Shown here: positions 38,082-47,383 of the stretch, in pieces
How positions within the stretch are numbered: the first letter of the stretch is position 1
Layout: each line of letters begins with the position of its first letter
NCBI GenBank assembly: GCA_902618205.1
Contig: CACMZL010000002.1
Span: 124,001 to 188,000, forward strand
Length of the DNA stretch: 64,000 nucleotides
Direction: 5' to 3'
Origin: an uncultured Pelagibacteraceae bacterium
GTDB taxonomy: Bacteria > Pseudomonadota > Alphaproteobacteria > Pelagibacterales > Pelagibacteraceae
Program-made: the position numbers and the translations under genes
The notes under the pieces: generated by a model
Database searches by the model: none
What the model saw: only the letters and a program-made list of their open reading frames with translations
Told to the model about the DNA's origin: nothing

Positions 38082-38930
38082 ATGAGCAAACTTTACACTT
38101 TTCTTAAATATTTCTTTATTACATTTTGGACTGTATTTGTTGTTGCACCATTTCTGTGGGCTGTATCAACATCTTTTAAAGACTTCCAATCTGTAAATAG
38201 TAAAGTAACTTATATTCCTTGGTTAGATTTCGAACCAACATTGGAGGGTTGGAGAGTTTTAATTAAGTCTCCTGCGAAAGGTGGAGTAGATATTGTTGAG
38301 CCCTATTTTAATAGTATTTTTGTAACTTGTACTGCTAGTTTAATAAGTATTGTTCTTGGAACACTTGCTGCTTATGCACTATCAAGATTTACTTTTAAAG
38401 CTGGATTTGTAAGAAACAACGATATTACTTTTTTCTTCATTTCACAAAGAATCATGCCTCCAATTGTATTATCAATTCCTTTCTTTATTTTTCTAAGCAC
38501 AATAGGATTGCTTGATAGTTTATTAGGTCTAGTGGTCGTATATATCGTTTTATTAATGCCAATTGCTGTTTGGATTATGGTAGATTTTTTTAATAGAGTT
38601 CCAAAAGAATTAGATGAGACTGCATTAATTGATGGGTGTAATCCTTATCAAGCTTTCTATAAAGTTGTTTTACCAAATTCAATACCTGGTTTAATTGTTG
38701 CAGGAATGTTTTGTATTATTTTTGGATGGATAGATTTCTTTTTTGCATTTATTTTAACATTTACTGAAGTACAATTGTTACCTGTAAAAGTTGTTGCACT
38801 TAATTCATCAATAACACCATGGTGGAGCCTTTCGGCATCTGCTTTGGTTTCAGTTGCACCATTAATAATCGTTGCATTTATAGTTGAGAGATATCTATCA
38901 AAAGGAAATTTATCAGGAGCATTAAAATAA
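38082..38930 (+). CDS. ABC transporter permease 2 (MalG/UgpE-like)
   Basis: A 282-residue CUT1-type permease. An N-terminal helix is followed by the periplasmic loop with WRVLIKSPAKGG, then five more helices. The EAA loop is ELDETALIDGCNPYQAFYKVVLPNSIPG. It pairs with the upstream permease. Its TAA stop shares its last base with the ATG of the first ATPase gene (38930), indicating coupled translation. Confidence 0.93.
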   Translation: MSKLYTFLKYFFITFWTVFVVAPFLWAVSTSFKDFQSVNSKVTYIPWLDFEPTLEGWRVLIKSPAKGGVDIVEPYFNSIFVTCTASLISIVLGTLAAYALSRFTFKAGFVRNNDITFFFISQRIMPPIVLSIPFFIFLSTIGLLDSLLGLVVVYIVLLMPIAVWIMVDFFNRVPKELDETALIDGCNPYQAFYKVVLPNSIPGLIVAGMFCIIFGWIDFFFAFILTFTEVQLLPVKVVALNSSITPWWSLSASALVSVAPLIIVAFIVERYLSKGNLSGALK

Positions 38931-40009
38931 TGAATTTAATTGGAGAGAAAATTTCTTATAAACCTGATGAGCAATTTCATTTAAACGATGTCTCTTTTAA
39001 TTTTAAAAAAGGTAATTTGTATACCATTTTAGGCAGAACTTTATCTGGCAAAACGACTCTTTTAAAAACAATTGCAGGATTATTAAATCCAGATCAAGGC
39101 TCAATTTCTTTTGAGGAAAAAGACTTTATTAAAATACCAGTTTGGGAAAGAAATGTTGCTATGGTCTATCAGCAATTTATTAATTACCCTCACCTAAATG
39201 TTTATGAAAACATAACTTTTCCATTAGAACAGAGAAAATTAAGTCCTGAGCAAATAAAAAAAGATGTAGATGAAGCTCTAAAAACTGTTGGATTAGTTGG
39301 ATTTGAAAATAGAAAAATTCAGGAATTATCTGGTGGACAGCAACAAAGAGTTGCACTTGCAAGATCACTTGCAAAAAAAGCAAAAATTTTGTTGCTAGAC
39401 GAACCGTTAGTTAATTTAGATTATAAACTTAGAGAGCAGTTAAGAGAAGAATTTAAAAGAATTTTTTCAGAAGGACTATCCCAAGATACAATTTTAATTT
39501 ATTCAACAACAGACCCCCAAGAAGTAATGGAACTAAATGGAGAAGTAATTGTTTTAGATGAAGGGAAGGTATTACAAAAAGGGCCTGCTAAAGAGATTTT
39601 TGAAAATCCATCTAATTTAAAAGTTGCAGAAATATCAAATGATCCACCAATGAATGTTTTGAAGGGTTCAAAAAATTTAAAAAATGTGAACTTTGAGAAT
39701 ATTTCTTTAGAAATTCCAAATCATTTTAAAAATTTAGAAGATAAAGATTATAATTTTGGAATTAGAGCTTCAGAAATAAAACTTGATGAAAATGGTGAAG
39801 AATTCGAGATAGAATTAGCAGAGATTAGTGGTTCAGAAACATTGCTTCACTTAAAAAGAGGAAATTCAAAAATAATTGCTTTAATCGAGGAAGTAATGAA
39901 TTTTAAAATTCATGAGAAAGTAAAAATAAATTTTAATGCAAATAAGTTTTATGCTTTTGGAGAAGATGAAAAATTAGTTTCGTCGCCATATGGAGGAACA
40001 AATGGCTAA
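38930..40009 (+). CDS. ABC transporter ATP-binding protein 1 (canonical signature)
   Basis: A 359-residue CUT1-type ATPase. It has Walker A LGRTLSGKTTLLK, Q-loop MVYQQFINYP, the signature ELSGGQQQRVALARS, Walker B ILLLDEPLVNLD and a C-terminal regulatory (TOBE-like) domain from about residue 235. The switch-region sequence is YSTTDPQEV, without the usual His (normally TVTHDQ), so the catalytic His is replaced here by Thr. It presumably forms a heterodimer with ATPase 2, each partner supplying what the other lacks. GlpS of the rhizobial glycerol importer is the closest type I can recall. Confidence 0.92.
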   Translation: MNLIGEKISYKPDEQFHLNDVSFNFKKGNLYTILGRTLSGKTTLLKTIAGLLNPDQGSISFEEKDFIKIPVWERNVAMVYQQFINYPHLNVYENITFPLEQRKLSPEQIKKDVDEALKTVGLVGFENRKIQELSGGQQQRVALARSLAKKAKILLLDEPLVNLDYKLREQLREEFKRIFSEGLSQDTILIYSTTDPQEVMELNGEVIVLDEGKVLQKGPAKEIFENPSNLKVAEISNDPPMNVLKGSKNLKNVNFENISLEIPNHFKNLEDKDYNFGIRASEIKLDENGEEFEIELAEISGSETLLHLKRGNSKIIALIEEVMNFKIHEKVKINFNANKFYAFGEDEKLVSSPYGGTNG

Positions 40010-41075
40010 AATTGATTTATCAAATATCTCTCATACTTATAATCCTCTAGATCCAAAACCAACATATGCTCTTAATCCGTTTTCAATGACTTGGGAAAAT
40101 GGCAAGCGGTATGCAATTTTGGGACCTTCTGGGTGTGGAAAAACCACAATGTTAAACATTGTTTCTGGACTAGTGAGGCCATCCAAAGGTGAAATATTAT
40201 TCGATGAAACACCTGTGACCGATTTAAAAACAGAAGATAGAAATATTGCCCAAGTTTTCCAATTTCCAGTAATTTACAATACAATGACTGTTTATGATAA
40301 TTTAGCTTTCCCGCTAAGATGCAGGGAATTTACAAAAGAAAAAATTGAAGAAAGAGTAAAAGCAGTTTCAGATACTTTAAACTTATCTTCATTTTTAAAC
40401 TCACCAGCAAGAAAATTAACGGCTGATCAAAAACAACTTATCTCTTTAGGTAGAGGGTTGGTTAGGGAAGACGTTGCAGCTGTTTTAATGGACGAACCTC
40501 TTACAGTTATAGACCCAGATTTAAAATTTAGACTTCGAAGAAACTTAAAAGAAATCAATGAACAATATAAAACAACATTGGTTTATGTAACTCATGATCA
40601 AAACGAAGCTATGACTTTTGCAGAAAATATAATTGTTATGGATCAAGGTGAAATCGTGCAAGTTGGATTGCCAAAAGATTTATTTGAAAAACCTAAAACA
40701 ACTTTTGTTGGTTATTTTATTGGCTCTCCTGCGATGAATATCTTTCAATCAACTGTATCCTCTGATCATGAAGTAAAAATTAATGATACCACTATTAAGA
40801 CAAATTCAAATTTAGGAAATTTAAAAGATAAAAATGTTAAACTGGGTATTAGATCCGAGTTCATAGAATTGGCTGAAAGAGAAAAAAGTAATACAGTTAA
40901 AATTAAACTCACAAGAGTTGAGGACTTTGGTAATTTTAAGCTCCTTACAGGAAAAATGGGTGATTTAGTGATTAAGTCAAAGGTAGAAAGAGAAAAACCT
41001 ATTCCAGATGGAGAATTAAATTTATATTTTCCACCAGAGAAATGTTGCGTTTATTCTGATGAAAAATTAGTTTAA
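40002..41075 (+). CDS. ABC transporter ATP-binding protein 2 (degenerate signature)
   Basis: A 357-residue ATPase from the ATG at 40002 (MAKIDLSNISHTY), preceded by the SD GGAGGA. The ORF-track start at 39990 would place that SD inside the coding region. Walker A LGPSGCGKTTMLN, Q-loop QVFQFPVIYN, Walker B VLMDEPLTVID and switch His VTHDQNEAMTF are intact. The ABC signature reads KLTADQKQLISLGRG instead of LSGGQ. It complements ATPase 1, which has the signature but no switch His. A TOBE-like domain follows. The gene overlaps ATPase 1 by eight bases. Confidence 0.93.
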   Translation: MAKIDLSNISHTYNPLDPKPTYALNPFSMTWENGKRYAILGPSGCGKTTMLNIVSGLVRPSKGEILFDETPVTDLKTEDRNIAQVFQFPVIYNTMTVYDNLAFPLRCREFTKEKIEERVKAVSDTLNLSSFLNSPARKLTADQKQLISLGRGLVREDVAAVLMDEPLTVIDPDLKFRLRRNLKEINEQYKTTLVYVTHDQNEAMTFAENIIVMDQGEIVQVGLPKDLFEKPKTTFVGYFIGSPAMNIFQSTVSSDHEVKINDTTIKTNSNLGNLKDKNVKLGIRSEFIELAEREKSNTVKIKLTRVEDFGNFKLLTGKMGDLVIKSKVEREKPIPDGELNLYFPPEKCCVYSDEKLV

Positions 41076-41082
41076 TGGATAA

Positions 41083-42381
41083 ATGAAACTCCTAAATTTA
41101 TCAGCACAACAACTTTTAAAAAAACTTAAAAACAAACAATTAACTTCTGTTGAACTTTGTAAAGCATATATAAATCAAAAAAAAAAATATGATAAGAATA
41201 TTCAAGCTTGGGAATATTTTAATGAAAAAAAACTCCTAAGTGATGCGAAAAAATCTGACAATCAGAGAAAAAAATTGAAATCTTTAGGGGCTTTGCATGG
41301 TCTACCAGTAGCACTTAAAGATATTATTTCAACATCTGAAATGCCAACAAAATATGGGGCAAGAATAAAATTAAAAAAAAAGACTAATTTAGATGCCAAA
41401 ATTGTTGAGCTCTTAAAAAAGGCTGGAGCAATAATTATGGGTAAAACTGTAACTTGTGAATTAGCTTTCTTATCTCCATCAAAAACTAAAAACCCACATG
41501 ATTATTCAAGAACACCAGGAGGTTCATCTAGTGGTTCTGCAGCTGCCATTGCATCTGATATGGCGCCATTATCAATTGGAACTCAAACTGGCGGATCCGT
41601 GATTAGGCCAGCCTCTTATTGTGGAGTTGTTGGTTATAAACCTACCTATGGATTAATTTCTAGAAATGGTATTTTACAAACATCATATAATTTAGATCAA
41701 GTCGGAGTATTTGGAAAAACAATTAGTGATGTAGAACTTTTATCAAAAGTTTTGTTTGCTAGAGACGATGCAGATGCAATAACAACAAGTGTTAATTTTC
41801 TTAATAAAAAAATTAAAATAAAAAAATCAAAATTTGTTTTTTATAAAACCAAACGTTGGAGAAATGTTGATAGTATTTCTAAAAAATCATTTAACAAATT
41901 TATTTTAAATAATAAAAAAATGATAAAAGTTGAGACTGCTCCCAAATATTTTGAAGAAATGATTGATTGTCATACAATTATATATGAGACAGAGATGGCT
42001 CAAAATTTCCATAATTATTACAAAACTTCAAAAGGAAAACTTTCTATAGAAATTAAGAAAGCAATTATTAATGGACTAAAACATTCGGCTAAAGATTATG
42101 CTTTAGCTTTAGATGCGATGAGAACATATTCAAAAAACTTAGATAATATATTTGAAAGGTTTGATGCAATTATAACGCCAAGTAGTTGTGGAATTGCTGA
42201 CAAAGGATTTAAGACAACTGGGAGTCCAGAATTTAATAAGATTTGGTCTCTTGCACATGTGCCCTGCATTTCACTGCCAATTTTGAAAGGTGAAAAAAAT
42301 TTGCCTTTAGGAGTGCAAATTATAGGCAAACAATTTGAAGATCTAAGCATGTTAAAACATGCCAAAATATTCAATAATTAA
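41083..42381 (+). CDS. Amidase-signature hydrolase
   Basis: A 432-residue serine amidase of the GatA/AtzE family. The catalytic Lys lies in PVALKDIISTSE. The Gly/Ser-rich core RTPGGSSSGSAAAIASDM plus IGTQTGGSVIRPAS holds the cis-Ser and the nucleophilic Ser, so the Ser-Ser-Lys triad is complete. GatB and GatC are not adjacent and the sequence is shorter than typical GatA (about 485), so a small-molecule amide substrate is likelier than tRNA. It lies seven bases after ATPase 2, possibly acting on a compound taken up by that transporter. Confidence 0.88.
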   Translation: MKLLNLSAQQLLKKLKNKQLTSVELCKAYINQKKKYDKNIQAWEYFNEKKLLSDAKKSDNQRKKLKSLGALHGLPVALKDIISTSEMPTKYGARIKLKKKTNLDAKIVELLKKAGAIIMGKTVTCELAFLSPSKTKNPHDYSRTPGGSSSGSAAAIASDMAPLSIGTQTGGSVIRPASYCGVVGYKPTYGLISRNGILQTSYNLDQVGVFGKTISDVELLSKVLFARDDADAITTSVNFLNKKIKIKKSKFVFYKTKRWRNVDSISKKSFNKFILNNKKMIKVETAPKYFEEMIDCHTIIYETEMAQNFHNYYKTSKGKLSIEIKKAIINGLKHSAKDYALALDAMRTYSKNLDNIFERFDAIITPSSCGIADKGFKTTGSPEFNKIWSLAHVPCISLPILKGEKNLPLGVQIIGKQFEDLSMLKHAKIFNN

Positions 42382-42507: not shown

Positions 42508-43638
42508 ATGATTAAAGAAAAAAAACTATTGAAGGGTAAAACTCCTTCAAGACGTAAATTCTTTAAGGCTGCTGCTGCGACTGGTGTTGCTGCTGTAGCT
42601 GCATCATCTTTAGCTGCTCCAGCCGTTGCCAAAGAAAGAATTGAAGCTTCTATGGTAGCTACATGGGGAAGAGATTTCCCAGGTTTAGGAACTGGTGCGC
42701 AAAGATTTGCTCAAAGAATTACAGACATGAGTGATGGAAGAATTCAAGTCACTTACTATGCAGCAAACGAAAGGGTTAAAGCGTTTGACTCATTTGATGA
42801 AGTTGCTTCAGGTAACTCGCAAATGTATCACGCTGCTGACTACTACTGGGTTAAAAAAGATCCAGCTTGGGGTTACTTTACAGCTGTACCTTTCGGTTTC
42901 ACTTACACTGAAATGAACGCATGGATTAGATTTGCTGGTGGTCAACAATTATGGGATGAACTATCAGACAAATTTGGTCTAAAAAACTTTATGTGTGGAA
43001 GCACAGGAGTTCAAATGGGTGGATGGTTTAACAAGAAAATTAGAAGCCCTAATGACTTCAAAGGTCTTAAAATGCGTATGCCTGGATTAGGTGGACAAGT
43101 TATCGGTAAACTTGGAGGATCTCCAGTTTCACTTCCTGGTGGACAAATTTACGAAAACCTTGTTTCTGGTGCAATTGATGCAACAGAGTGGGTAGGTCCA
43201 TGGAATGATGAAGCTATGAAATTCCAAGAAGCTGCTAAATACTACTACTATCCTGGAATGCACGAGCCAGGATCTATGTTAGCATGTGGTTCTAACAAAT
43301 CTTGGTTTACAAGCTTATCAAAATCAGATCAGCTATTAATTGAAGCTGCAGCTGCGATGGAAAATGACGTTATGATGTCAGAGTACAACGCTAAAAATGG
43401 TGCAGCGCTTGCAAGATTAATAAACGATCATGGTGTTAAACTAGAGAAGTTTAGCGACAAAGTTTATGATGGTTTTGCTAAAGCTGCTAATGAAGTATTT
43501 GAGGAAACAAGAGCAAGCAGTGGTCTCGCTGAGAGAATCCACTCTAGTTTCTTACAGGCTAGAAAAGACATTGGTTCTTGGACCAACTTGTCTGACTCGC
43601 CTTACATTTCTCAAAGAAACAGAGCATTAGGAATGTAA
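42508..43638 (+). CDS. TRAP transporter solute-binding protein (TakP-like, 2-oxo acid type) with Tat signal
   Basis: A 376-residue periplasmic binding protein with a twin-arginine signal (SRRKFFKAAAATGVAAVAASSLAAPAVA). The mature part MVATWGRDFPGLGTGAQRFAQRI, YWVKKDPAWGYFTAVPFGFTY, LKMRMPGLGGQVIGKLGG and DATEWVGPWNDEAMKFQ closely follows the pattern I recall for Rhodobacter TakP, which binds 2-oxo acids such as pyruvate. The Arg in KMRMPG and the Trp in TEWVGPW are typical ligand contacts. The group may also bind other small carboxylates. Export by Tat suggests folding before transport. Permease genes follow after a terminator-like hairpin. Confidence 0.93.
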   Translation: MIKEKKLLKGKTPSRRKFFKAAAATGVAAVAASSLAAPAVAKERIEASMVATWGRDFPGLGTGAQRFAQRITDMSDGRIQVTYYAANERVKAFDSFDEVASGNSQMYHAADYYWVKKDPAWGYFTAVPFGFTYTEMNAWIRFAGGQQLWDELSDKFGLKNFMCGSTGVQMGGWFNKKIRSPNDFKGLKMRMPGLGGQVIGKLGGSPVSLPGGQIYENLVSGAIDATEWVGPWNDEAMKFQEAAKYYYYPGMHEPGSMLACGSNKSWFTSLSKSDQLLIEAAAAMENDVMMSEYNAKNGAALARLINDHGVKLEKFSDKVYDGFAKAANEVFEETRASSGLAERIHSSFLQARKDIGSWTNLSDSPYISQRNRALGM

Positions 43639-43726: not shown

Positions 43727-44716
43727 ATGGTGACAAAAAATTCAAATCTTTCTTTATATCTTAGAATAATCAGTTATTCAGTTTTAGCTTTTACTTTAGC
43801 ATTTCTTATTAATAATGTTTTAACAGTTTGGAGTGATTGGCCAGGAATAAAAAAAATTTTTTCACATCATGAGATGTTTGGATACAAGAAAAAAGCTCTA
43901 GAGGGATCTGATTTAAATTATGGTTATATGCAAATTGGATTGTATTTGATTTGTATTGCTGCAGTCGTTTTTTACGTTTTTAAAACATATAGCCAAACTT
44001 TGGAGCAAGATTCAAAAATTTTATCAAGATTTTCAGCATATCTTGTTAGATCATCATTTTGGGCAGTATTTTTAGTTGGCGTAGCTGACTTTGTTATATC
44101 TTTTATGGTTGTTGAAAGATTATGGGAAGCAATCTTCAGTCCTGAAGTAAAAGCATTGATGGTTAAAGCCCCTGTAAGAATTACTTATATTCACTTTCCA
44201 ATAATATTAATTTCTTTCGTGATTGGATATTTTACAAAATCAGTTGGTTTTATTTGGCTAGCAGTATTGGTTGTAGTAAGTGAATTCGTAATTGTATTAT
44301 CAAGATTTATATTTTCATACGAACAAGCATTTCAAGGCGATCTAGTTAGATTTTGGTATGCTGCACTTTATTTATTTGCTAGTGCATACGCATTAATTCA
44401 TGAAGGGCACGTAAGAGTTGATGTACTCTATTCTTCTTTTAGTGAAAAAAAGAAGGCATGGACAAATATGGTTGGATCGGCAGTTCTAGGAGTACCACTT
44501 ACATTAATAGTTATATTTTTAGGTCTAAACGGAAAAGCCAGCATTATAAATGGTCCTGTTGTAGCTTTTGAAGTTACGCAACAAGGATCTAATGGTCTCT
44601 ATCTTCTATATTTGATGGCTGTTTATCTAGCTGTTTTTGCTGTTACGATGTTAATTCAATTTACTAGCTATTTTATGGAAAGTAGTCACAAAATTTTAAA
44701 AGGTGTCAAAAATTAA
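43727..44716 (+). CDS. TRAP transporter small permease subunit (DctQ family, extended)
   Basis: A 329-residue inner-membrane protein, about twice the usual size of DctQ. The true DctQ domain is in the C-terminal half (FWYAALYLFASAYALIHEGHVRVDVLYSSFS). The N-terminal 180 residues contribute extra helices, including the first at SYSVLAFTLAFLINNVLTV and others near residues 65-80 and 105-125. The large subunit starts three bases downstream. Some TakP-type operons carry such enlarged DctQ proteins. The role of the added helices is unknown. Confidence 0.9.
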   Translation: MVTKNSNLSLYLRIISYSVLAFTLAFLINNVLTVWSDWPGIKKIFSHHEMFGYKKKALEGSDLNYGYMQIGLYLICIAAVVFYVFKTYSQTLEQDSKILSRFSAYLVRSSFWAVFLVGVADFVISFMVVERLWEAIFSPEVKALMVKAPVRITYIHFPIILISFVIGYFTKSVGFIWLAVLVVVSEFVIVLSRFIFSYEQAFQGDLVRFWYAALYLFASAYALIHEGHVRVDVLYSSFSEKKKAWTNMVGSAVLGVPLTLIVIFLGLNGKASIINGPVVAFEVTQQGSNGLYLLYLMAVYLAVFAVTMLIQFTSYFMESSHKILKGVKN

Positions 44717-44719
44717 ATT

Positions 44720-47383
44720 ATGGAAACATTCTTTTTAGCTGTTCTAGTTGTGATAATGATTGTTGCTCTTGCATCGGGTTACCCTGTTGCTTTTGCACTA
44801 CCTGGTTCAGCTATAATTGCAATTGGTTTAGCTGCATTTTTTGGCTACATATTCGAGGGAGACTCCAGTGCCTTTTTTGCTGTAGATGGACCCATAGAAT
44901 GGCTTGTTGCTGGTATTACAAATTTTAGGAGTAATTACTGGGATGTAGAAACAGATACTTTGATCGCAATTCCTTTATTTATTTTCATGGGAATTATGCT
45001 TCAAAAATCAAAAATTGCCGAAGACTTATTAATAACAATGGGCCAATTATTTGGACCAATTCCTGGTGGTTTAGGAATTTCAGTTATATTTGTTGGAGCT
45101 CTATTAGCAGCAACGACTGGTATCGTTGGAGCAACTGTAATTGCGATGGGACTAATTTCGTTACCAACAATGTTAAATAACAAGTATGACAGACAACTTG
45201 CTAGTGGAATAGTTTGTTCATCAGGAACATTAGGTCAAATTATTCCTCCATCAATTGTTTTAATTATTATTGCTGACCAGTTGGCAAGTGCATCTGATGT
45301 TGCAAACAACCTAAGACAAAATGATTATAAAGCCTTAACTGGTGAATTTAATATGCCAGGTGAATTTAGAGTAGGTTCATCAAGTGCAGGTGATATGTTT
45401 TTAGGAGCACTTTTACCAGGTCTTGTTTTAGTTGCTCTTTATATGATCTATGTATTTATTTTTGCTAGAATAAAGAAAGGTGTTGCACCGCCAGTTCCAT
45501 TTAAAGGAAATTTTGATTTAAAATTTTGGTTAAGAGTAGTTGTAATCATCATACCACCACTTGCATTAATATTCGCTGTATTAGGTTCAATTTTAATGGG
45601 TATTGCTACTGTAAACCAAGCAGGTTCAATTGGAGCAATTGGTGCCACTTTGATGGCTGGTTATAGATTATATGAAGGAAAGAAAAGTGCGTTCTATCCT
45701 TTAATTTTAATTATTGGATCTCTAATTCCAATTACATTCTTTGCATCAAATTATGAATTAAATGTAAAAAATTTGGAGGAAAGAGATTTAAGTGCAATCT
45801 TTATAACCGCTTTCTTTGTGGTCATACTTGTATACGGAATAGGTTGGAGTTTTTGGAGAACTTTTAAAACAGAAAATGTTTTAAAAGAAGTTGTAACAGA
45901 AACTTGTGTAACCACTTCAATGGTATTTATTATCCTTTTAGGAGCAGCAATGCTTACTTCAGGATTTAGAGCTTTTGGGGGAGAAGAATTAGTAAGAGAC
46001 TTTTTACAAGATTTACCGGGTGGTTTTTGGACACAATTTGTTGTTGTGATGATTGTAATTTTCTTGCTAGGATTTTTCCTAGACTTTATAGAAATCGCAG
46101 TTGTTGTTGTTCCAATAATTGCACCAATATTACTAGCTGAAACAGGGGCCAACGTCACAGCCGTTTGGTTGGGAGTTATGATTGGTGTTAACTTACAGAC
46201 TTCCTTCTTAACGCCGCCATTTGGTTTTGCACTCTTTTATTTAAAAGGTGTAGCTCCAAAAATTGTTAAAACACTTGATATTTGGAAAGGTGTTGTGCCT
46301 TTTATAATTCTTCAGCTTATAGGATTGGGAATAGTCGGTGCATATCCTAGCTTAGTAAATTATCTACCAAATAGAGTATATTTAACTTCGAATGTTGCTC
46401 CTCCACCAATGAATCCTAAATTACAGTACTGTTTACAAGAGTACAAATTTGCAAGATTTGATTCAAATGGTGAGACAATTAAAAATGCAATATTAAAATT
46501 CCAATCTGAGGCACCAACTAATCTGCCAGATGATAAAATGGAAATTTTAGAAGATCATTTTGATAGTGCATTAGGAACTTTTGCTCTAGTTGATAAATTA
46601 AAAAAAGTTGAGGTCGAATACAACGCATATGCTGTTGATTATAGGGATCTGCATTTCACTGTTAGAAAGAAGCAAAAGAAAATACTTAAATTAAATAAAA
46701 AAATAGAAAAATATAAAGCAGAGATTAGAAATTTAGATGATGACGAATTAGATGAGAAAAATAAAATAGAATTAAGAATTGAGGATGTAAAACTTGAAAT
46801 TGAGGAAATTCAAAACTCAATCCCAGAAACTTGGCAAGCTAAGAATTCAGAATTCGACAAAATAAATAAAGCTAAAAATACAACAACAAAAAGATATAGA
46901 AAGAATGTAGATGAAGCCTATGATCTACTTGATCAGTTCGCAATGTTCATAAACGATGGAGCAAAACTTCAAGAAGTATCAAAAGATATTAAACAGTTAG
47001 ATTATTTTATAGCTATGGAAAGCAATACAAAAGTATATGAAAGATCAGTTACAATTATGGATGGATTGTTTGATAAGTTGAGTGAGATCTCTGGAATGGA
47101 TGAATTTTTAAATAGTGTAGATGATTTATTATCAATGGTTGACTCAGACGAACTTGATCCAATGGCGATTAGAACAAAATCAAAAGAAGTTGTTGAGTTA
47201 TTCAATAGAGAAGTTAGCTGGAGGGCAAATGCTAAAGAAAACTTAATGCCAAAACTTGAGGAATATAATAATGCAATCAAAGAAACAATTGGACTAAGGT
47301 TGCAGTCTAAACTAACCAAAGAGCAAGCTATCTATGTATCTAAATGTAATTCAATACATAGAGATATTTCACTAAATTTTTAA
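44720..47383 (+). CDS. TRAP transporter large permease (DctM family) with long coiled-coil C-terminal tail
   Basis: An 887-residue protein. Residues 1 to about 550 are the DctM membrane domain: GYPVAFALPGSAIIAIGLA, IPLFIFMGIMLQKS, ATTGIVGATVIAMGLISLPTML, the SSGTLGQIIPPSIVLII gate motif, and later FLTPPFGFALFYLKGVAP. A hydrophilic insert of about 40 residues (near 190-230) is usual for the FcbT3/TakP type. From about residue 560 to 887 comes a charged, largely helical tail (RKKQKKILKLNKKIEKYKAE and similar) that looks like coiled coil and has no counterpart in ordinary DctM proteins. It converges with the next gene with a four-base overlap. Confidence 0.93.
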   Translation: METFFLAVLVVIMIVALASGYPVAFALPGSAIIAIGLAAFFGYIFEGDSSAFFAVDGPIEWLVAGITNFRSNYWDVETDTLIAIPLFIFMGIMLQKSKIAEDLLITMGQLFGPIPGGLGISVIFVGALLAATTGIVGATVIAMGLISLPTMLNNKYDRQLASGIVCSSGTLGQIIPPSIVLIIIADQLASASDVANNLRQNDYKALTGEFNMPGEFRVGSSSAGDMFLGALLPGLVLVALYMIYVFIFARIKKGVAPPVPFKGNFDLKFWLRVVVIIIPPLALIFAVLGSILMGIATVNQAGSIGAIGATLMAGYRLYEGKKSAFYPLILIIGSLIPITFFASNYELNVKNLEERDLSAIFITAFFVVILVYGIGWSFWRTFKTENVLKEVVTETCVTTSMVFIILLGAAMLTSGFRAFGGEELVRDFLQDLPGGFWTQFVVVMIVIFLLGFFLDFIEIAVVVVPIIAPILLAETGANVTAVWLGVMIGVNLQTSFLTPPFGFALFYLKGVAPKIVKTLDIWKGVVPFIILQLIGLGIVGAYPSLVNYLPNRVYLTSNVAPPPMNPKLQYCLQEYKFARFDSNGETIKNAILKFQSEAPTNLPDDKMEILEDHFDSALGTFALVDKLKKVEVEYNAYAVDYRDLHFTVRKKQKKILKLNKKIEKYKAEIRNLDDDELDEKNKIELRIEDVKLEIEEIQNSIPETWQAKNSEFDKINKAKNTTTKRYRKNVDEAYDLLDQFAMFINDGAKLQEVSKDIKQLDYFIAMESNTKVYERSVTIMDGLFDKLSEISGMDEFLNSVDDLLSMVDSDELDPMAIRTKSKEVVELFNREVSWRANAKENLMPKLEEYNNAIKETIGLRLQSKLTKEQAIYVSKCNSIHRDISLNF

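Follow-up and report, generated by a model that had tools for sequence, protein, structure and literature searches.

The locus described here raises the question of why the large permease of a TRAP transporter should run on for some 330 residues beyond its membrane domain, and of what such an addition might contribute to the import of a solute. The window, a stretch of DNA of 64,000 nucleotides, belongs to a SAR11-type genome (near-identical loci carry the name uncultured Pelagibacteraceae) and holds three tightly packed open reading frames in the order DctP, DctQ and DctM, all on the plus strand, as are all features of the window given below. The first encodes a solute-binding protein of 376 amino acids (42508..43638) with a twin-arginine-type signal (the TAT_signal match is weak) and a TakP-like 2-oxoacid/cation site, and its match to PF03480 (2.4e-50) makes it a DctP-type and not a TAXI protein. 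The second is an enlarged DctQ of 329 amino acids (43727..44716), in which the small permease family is recognized only at residues 187-309 (PF04290, 1.8e-9, over the cut-off). The third is a DctM of 887 amino acids (44720-47383), a member of the large permease family (PF06808, 1.4e-62) that also matches TIGR00786 (1.3e-74), slightly below the cut-off of that model (251 versus 268 bits). The P-Q-M gene order is common to nearly all complete homologous loci. The locus is best read as a complete P-Q-M operon for a DctP-type TRAP importer of a distinct TakPQM-like branch. Immediately upstream of the operon, on the same strand, come two neighbouring genes for ABC ATPases and one for an amidase (38930-42381).

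The earlier note had placed the end of the DctM domain near residue 555 of a frame that continues to 887, and the Pfam family indeed spans only the first 550 residues or so. The frame thus comprises a membrane core (residues 1-553, 44720..46378) and a C-terminal helical domain, putatively periplasmic (residues 557-887 plus the stop codon, 46388..47383), hereafter the tail. The suspicion that a sequencing error had fused the frame can be set aside, since the genus sample contains 12 SAR11 genomes with full-length orthologues in unbroken frames of 884-888 amino acids at 75-100% identity, and two further genomes in which the tail was met at a contig end. Conservation of the tail, which had been proposed as a check, extends beyond these orthologues to further relatives. 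A search with the tail alone recovered it in 31 of 385 alphaproteobacterial genomes within open frames of 838-960 amino acids, that is, joined to DctM, and a profile search of 399 genomes of the phylum gave strong matches in seven genomes (E of 2e-95 or better), all in frames of 885-903 amino acids, together with three weak ones that look like chance coiled-coil matches. Named carriers include Roseibium, Thalassobaculum, Loktanella, SAR116 and Granulosicoccus; some gamma- and deltaproteobacterial MAGs also carry the tail, the delta-type assignment depending on binning. No free-standing tail, separate from DctM, was found in the samples searched, and in the plasmid collection the matches listed comprised only tail-less relatives, with no place spanning 80% of the query.

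Identity among tails is low across genera (about 20-30%), and the dN/dS of the tail (about 0.06-0.16 in SAR11 pairs with unsaturated dS) exceeds that of the membrane core (0.015-0.06) by a factor of about 2-5. These two patterns could speak for a fusion artefact or a decaying appendage drifting without function, but such an origin is exceedingly improbable, given that the same frame with near-constant length recurs at 95 loci from many families, that dN/dS ratios of 0.06-0.16 are retained and that the termini are invariant. Consistent with these substitution patterns, the tail is a constrained part of the protein, although less so than the core.

Both ends of the tail are strongly conserved. 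It begins with an entry motif, PPPMNPKLQYC (46400..46432), the last residue of which is the invariant Cys571; the family form of this start is PPPxNPxLQxC, and PPP, NP and C571 are invariant in 45 of 45 aligned proteins. It closes with the motif GLRxQxRL..QA..VAxCxxxHRDISLxF (47291..47380), which contains the invariant Cys876 and which in the family takes the form GLRxQxRL...C...HRDISLxF at the very C-terminus. The region had been described as helical and highly charged, and both properties were recovered: the 335 residues from position 553 include 62 D/E and 52 K/R, and AF2 predicts an all-alpha structure. The DctM part of a full-length AF2 prediction was poor (pTM 0.44), the family alignment probably offering too little variation over that part, and the tail (residues 553-887) was therefore modelled alone, with a mean pLDDT of 90.9 and a pTM of 0.82. 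Its longest helix, of 68 residues (604-671, 46529..46732), was delineated by AF2 and shows a hydrophobic period of 3.45-3.5, which is of the coiled-coil type. The description of the tail as a coiled coil consequently applies to this one helix; overall the model is a multi-helix domain and not a simple coiled coil.

Comparisons of the tail with known domains and structures gave no relative. In Pfam there were only weak, scattered coiled-coil matches and no curated family that covers it; a Foldseek search of the PDB with the tail model yielded nothing significant (best E 0.087, TMq 0.25); and sequence matches in the PDB (haemagglutinin HA2, SNARE and designed helices, E of 7e-4 or worse) were generic coiled-coil noise. 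One locus (L099) has a tail about 85 residues shorter in the middle, with both ends and both cysteines kept, and a tandem pair of DctP genes lies downstream of this shortened-tail M (L099:3139-5538).

The 68-residue heptad-periodic helix, and the combination of low identity with near-constant length that is typical of coiled coils, would suit a periplasmic stalk for oligomerisation or envelope spacing, the long helix pairing transporters or reaching peptidoglycan or partners in the outer membrane; the docking of the binding protein would then not involve the tail directly. We consider this unlikely. The invariant parts are the ends and not the middle, and the L099 tail, lacking some 85 middle residues, indicates that full reach is inessential there; further evidence on both sides is provided by the co-variation analysis below.

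The earlier note had the tail tethering the transporter, sensing load or binding a cytosolic partner, and its highly charged helices could be accommodated in the cytosol, where the N- and C-termini of DctQ also reside in solved TRAPs (PMC9971032). The topology of the large subunit argues otherwise. SiaM is NOut/COut (PMC9971032), and a study of FnSiaQM likewise infers that the C-terminus is in the periplasm (PMC11801797). The alignment of the DctM core with the solved SiaT/SiaM and isethionate DctMQ structures reaches as far as the C-terminal helix of these: residues 440-552 align with 505-612 of 7qe5 (616 residues) and residues 443-546 with 531-629 of 9pym (635 residues). Since the last helices align near the ends of the solved permeases, helices added midway through M should not alter the sense of the last helix. 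Furthermore, the loop preceding that helix is positive (family averages of 3.2 K+R and 0.3 D+E), as expected of the cytosolic side, which would place a tail that follows the helix in the periplasm.

The cysteines point in the same direction. Across the whole of DctM, only C571 and C876 are columns of 100% cysteine (45 aligned proteins), and each of the 95 tails, counted over the positions that align with the window DctM, contains this pair of terminal cysteines and no third. Cysteines paired in this way are suited to an oxidising compartment, which supports a periplasmic tail; DsbB is encoded in the genome, and a C571-C876 disulfide would close the domain. Judged by homologous structures and charge, the tail most likely lies in the periplasm, joined to the elevator domain. 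With a C-out permease, positive charge in the loop ahead of the final helix and a cysteine pair in every tail, a cytosolic location is very unlikely; tethering or load sensing on that side is left unsupported, and any partner should be sought in the periplasm instead.

The companion DctQ had also been reported as enlarged, and the comparison with relatives upholds this: it measures 329 amino acids in the window, whereas in all 26 tail-less relatives where a Q was detectable it is short (153-260 amino acids). At tail-bearing loci Q is 316-381 amino acids long in 91 of 95. The other four are no counter-examples to the pairing: one is without Q on the available piece, two have a Q cut by the contig end (L081 and L145), and one is split (L116). 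In this last case, from one SAR11 genome (L116:5013-5997), DctQ is divided into frames of 226 and 93 amino acids by a frameshift or an assembly error. The Q extension (residues 1-172, 43727..44242) contains about four hydrophobic segments, as indicated by hydropathy and the family alignment, which would add some four transmembrane helices and, by their number, retain the N-in orientation. No Pfam family matched these first 170 residues or so, and a duplicated DctQ was rejected as their source (hhalign against the DctQ core, probability 0.2%).

In a tree of M cores built by a quick search, with tail columns excluded and outgroups on long branches, the tail group forms one side of a branch (SH-aLRT 100) and involves a single change of state. 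On this tree, the tail and the Q extension arose once. Their association was further examined in a mirror-tree test of 57 loci; the figures obtained are indirect, coming as they do from sequences that share ancestry, and are no proof of contact. After the contributions of P and of the M and Q cores had been removed, the tail co-varies with the Q extension (partial r 0.36, p about 0.001), a result robust to ranks, squares and a control for fast-evolving M-core segments, which themselves showed no co-variation with the Q extension (0.09). The Q extension in turn co-varies with P (partial r 0.34), and the co-variation of tail with P is weak (partial r 0.08-0.10, p 0.04-0.1). Co-occurrence and co-variation together indicate that the tail and the Q extension are one two-part accessory module.

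The weak tail-P signal leaves direct contact between tail and binding protein unsupported by sequence, and a link between them, if there is any, may be routed through the Q extension. It also keeps two other functions as real rivals. One is the stalk discussed above, to which the weak signal lends some credit and against which stand the strict pairing and co-variation of the tail with the Q extension, since these point to a partner within the complex. The other, also rather unlikely, is that the tail and the four extra Q helices form a structural brace that stabilizes or assembles QM and leaves the handling of P unchanged. Such a brace would explain why tail and Q extension occur and vary together, and would agree with the weak tail-P signal and with selection on the tail being weaker than on the core; however, the Q extension co-varies with P as well, and a soluble domain of 330 residues is large for this purpose.

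What the binding protein carries can be approached through its structural relatives. The solved structures nearest to DctP, those of ketoacid-binding TRAP proteins, are 4pet, 5cm6, 7ug8 and TakP 2hzk, with E of 1e-64 to 1e-70. In TakP, pyruvate is held by Arg177 and Tyr100 and the cation by Glu214, Trp215, Glu240 and Gln156, and the protein is a helix-swapped dimer (PMC1839085). All six contacts are kept in the window DctP, in which Tyr100, Gln156, Arg177, Glu214, Trp215 and Glu240 correspond to Y113, Q169, R190, E227, W228 and E253, and the six positions are near-invariant across the family. The conservation of the full set implies that the load is probably a 2-oxoacid, or a small carboxylate of a similar kind, which the protein would bind together with a cation. 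The alignment with TakP extends to its residue 352, within the swapped dimer helix (326-365), and the binding protein may be a dimer as well. Gene neighbours do not settle the substrate: outside SAR11 no shared enzyme was found beside the operon, only a parC-like neighbourhood. A gene named from sequence as a parC-like topoisomerase is found near the P-Q-M operon in about 22 non-SAR11 loci (L069-L099, L109-L179), and one named in the same way as an Ate/Bpt-like arginyltransferase in 17 loci; these recurring neighbours suggest an old core-genome position of the operon.

Overall, we favour a reading, with a probability of roughly one half, in which the tail and the Q extension together dock and orient the binding protein on the membrane complex of a TakPQM-like TRAP. 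The periplasmic, disulfide-closed helical tail would be carried by the final helix of the mobile elevator domain and would be joined by some four additional membrane helices of Q to make one module, and above the elevator this module would position the binding protein, which is probably a dimer. A fact that speaks against docking is that relatives without the tail manage with TakP-like binding proteins of a similar kind. We propose more tentatively, as something possible but somewhat doubtful, that the arm and the enlarged DctQ hold a dimeric binding protein and couple its opening to the elevator stroke, which would constitute a second solution to the docking problem, evolved independently of the TAXI claw.

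The core of the system is an ordinary DctP-type TRAP, and its novelty resides in the tail and the Q extension, for neither of which was a description found in the literature searched (mostly open-access papers). The analysis gives a name to an unannotated DctM domain and ties it to an equally unannotated extension of DctQ, in a subfamily spread across Alphaproteobacteria, SAR11 included. It thereby provides a naturally occurring system in which to study how an elevator recognizes and opens its binding protein.

Compared with known systems, the locus shares the P-Q-M operon and the Pfam families of DctP-type TRAPs (TC 2.A.56; SiaPQM, DctPQM, isethionate DctPQM). However, M in those transporters has about 430-600 amino acids, whereas the window M has 887 and a soluble C-terminal helical domain, and the window Q, at about 330 amino acids, has about four extra transmembrane helices, neither addition having a Pfam family. 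The locus also resembles TakPQM of Rhodobacter sphaeroides (TakP 2hzk/2hzl), whose binding protein is homologous over 350 residues (E 6e-64) with the six contacts in common; M and Q of the window carry the two additions. In the tail-less sister group, P genes of the TakP type are accompanied by short Q and M.

The closest working parallel comes from VcGluQM, a TAXI-TRAP whose transport domain bears a periplasmic claw. On the basis of models this claw is proposed to stabilize docking of the binding protein, and the authors who described it point out that no such extension was on record for DctP-type systems (PMC11574862). The DUF3394 claw resembles the window tail, as read here, in being a soluble, periplasmic C-terminal domain of M, but it is mainly beta and lies between extra transmembrane helices, whereas the tail is predicted to be all-alpha and directly follows the last core helix. 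Claw-bearing TAXI-TRAPs moreover combine a TAXI-type binding protein with a fused QM, in contrast to the DctP-type protein and separate Q and M genes of the window. DUF3394 (PF11874) had no match in the window DctM and did not figure in the family lists of 45 tails, and the search recovered it as a positive control in a DctM of the same genome (L006, E 6.5e-44). This second TRAP permease (C2 8019-9377 region) has 773 amino acids, the DUF3394 claw and an adjoining putative TAXI-like binding-protein gene, so that two unrelated C-terminal add-ons on TRAP permeases occur in one genome. Descent of the tail from the claw was rejected on its all-alpha fold, its lack of a DUF3394 match and its position directly after the last core helix. 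The best reading is that the two are analogous and not homologous, and that the module would serve a DctP-type TRAP in the role proposed for the unrelated claw in TAXI-TRAPs.
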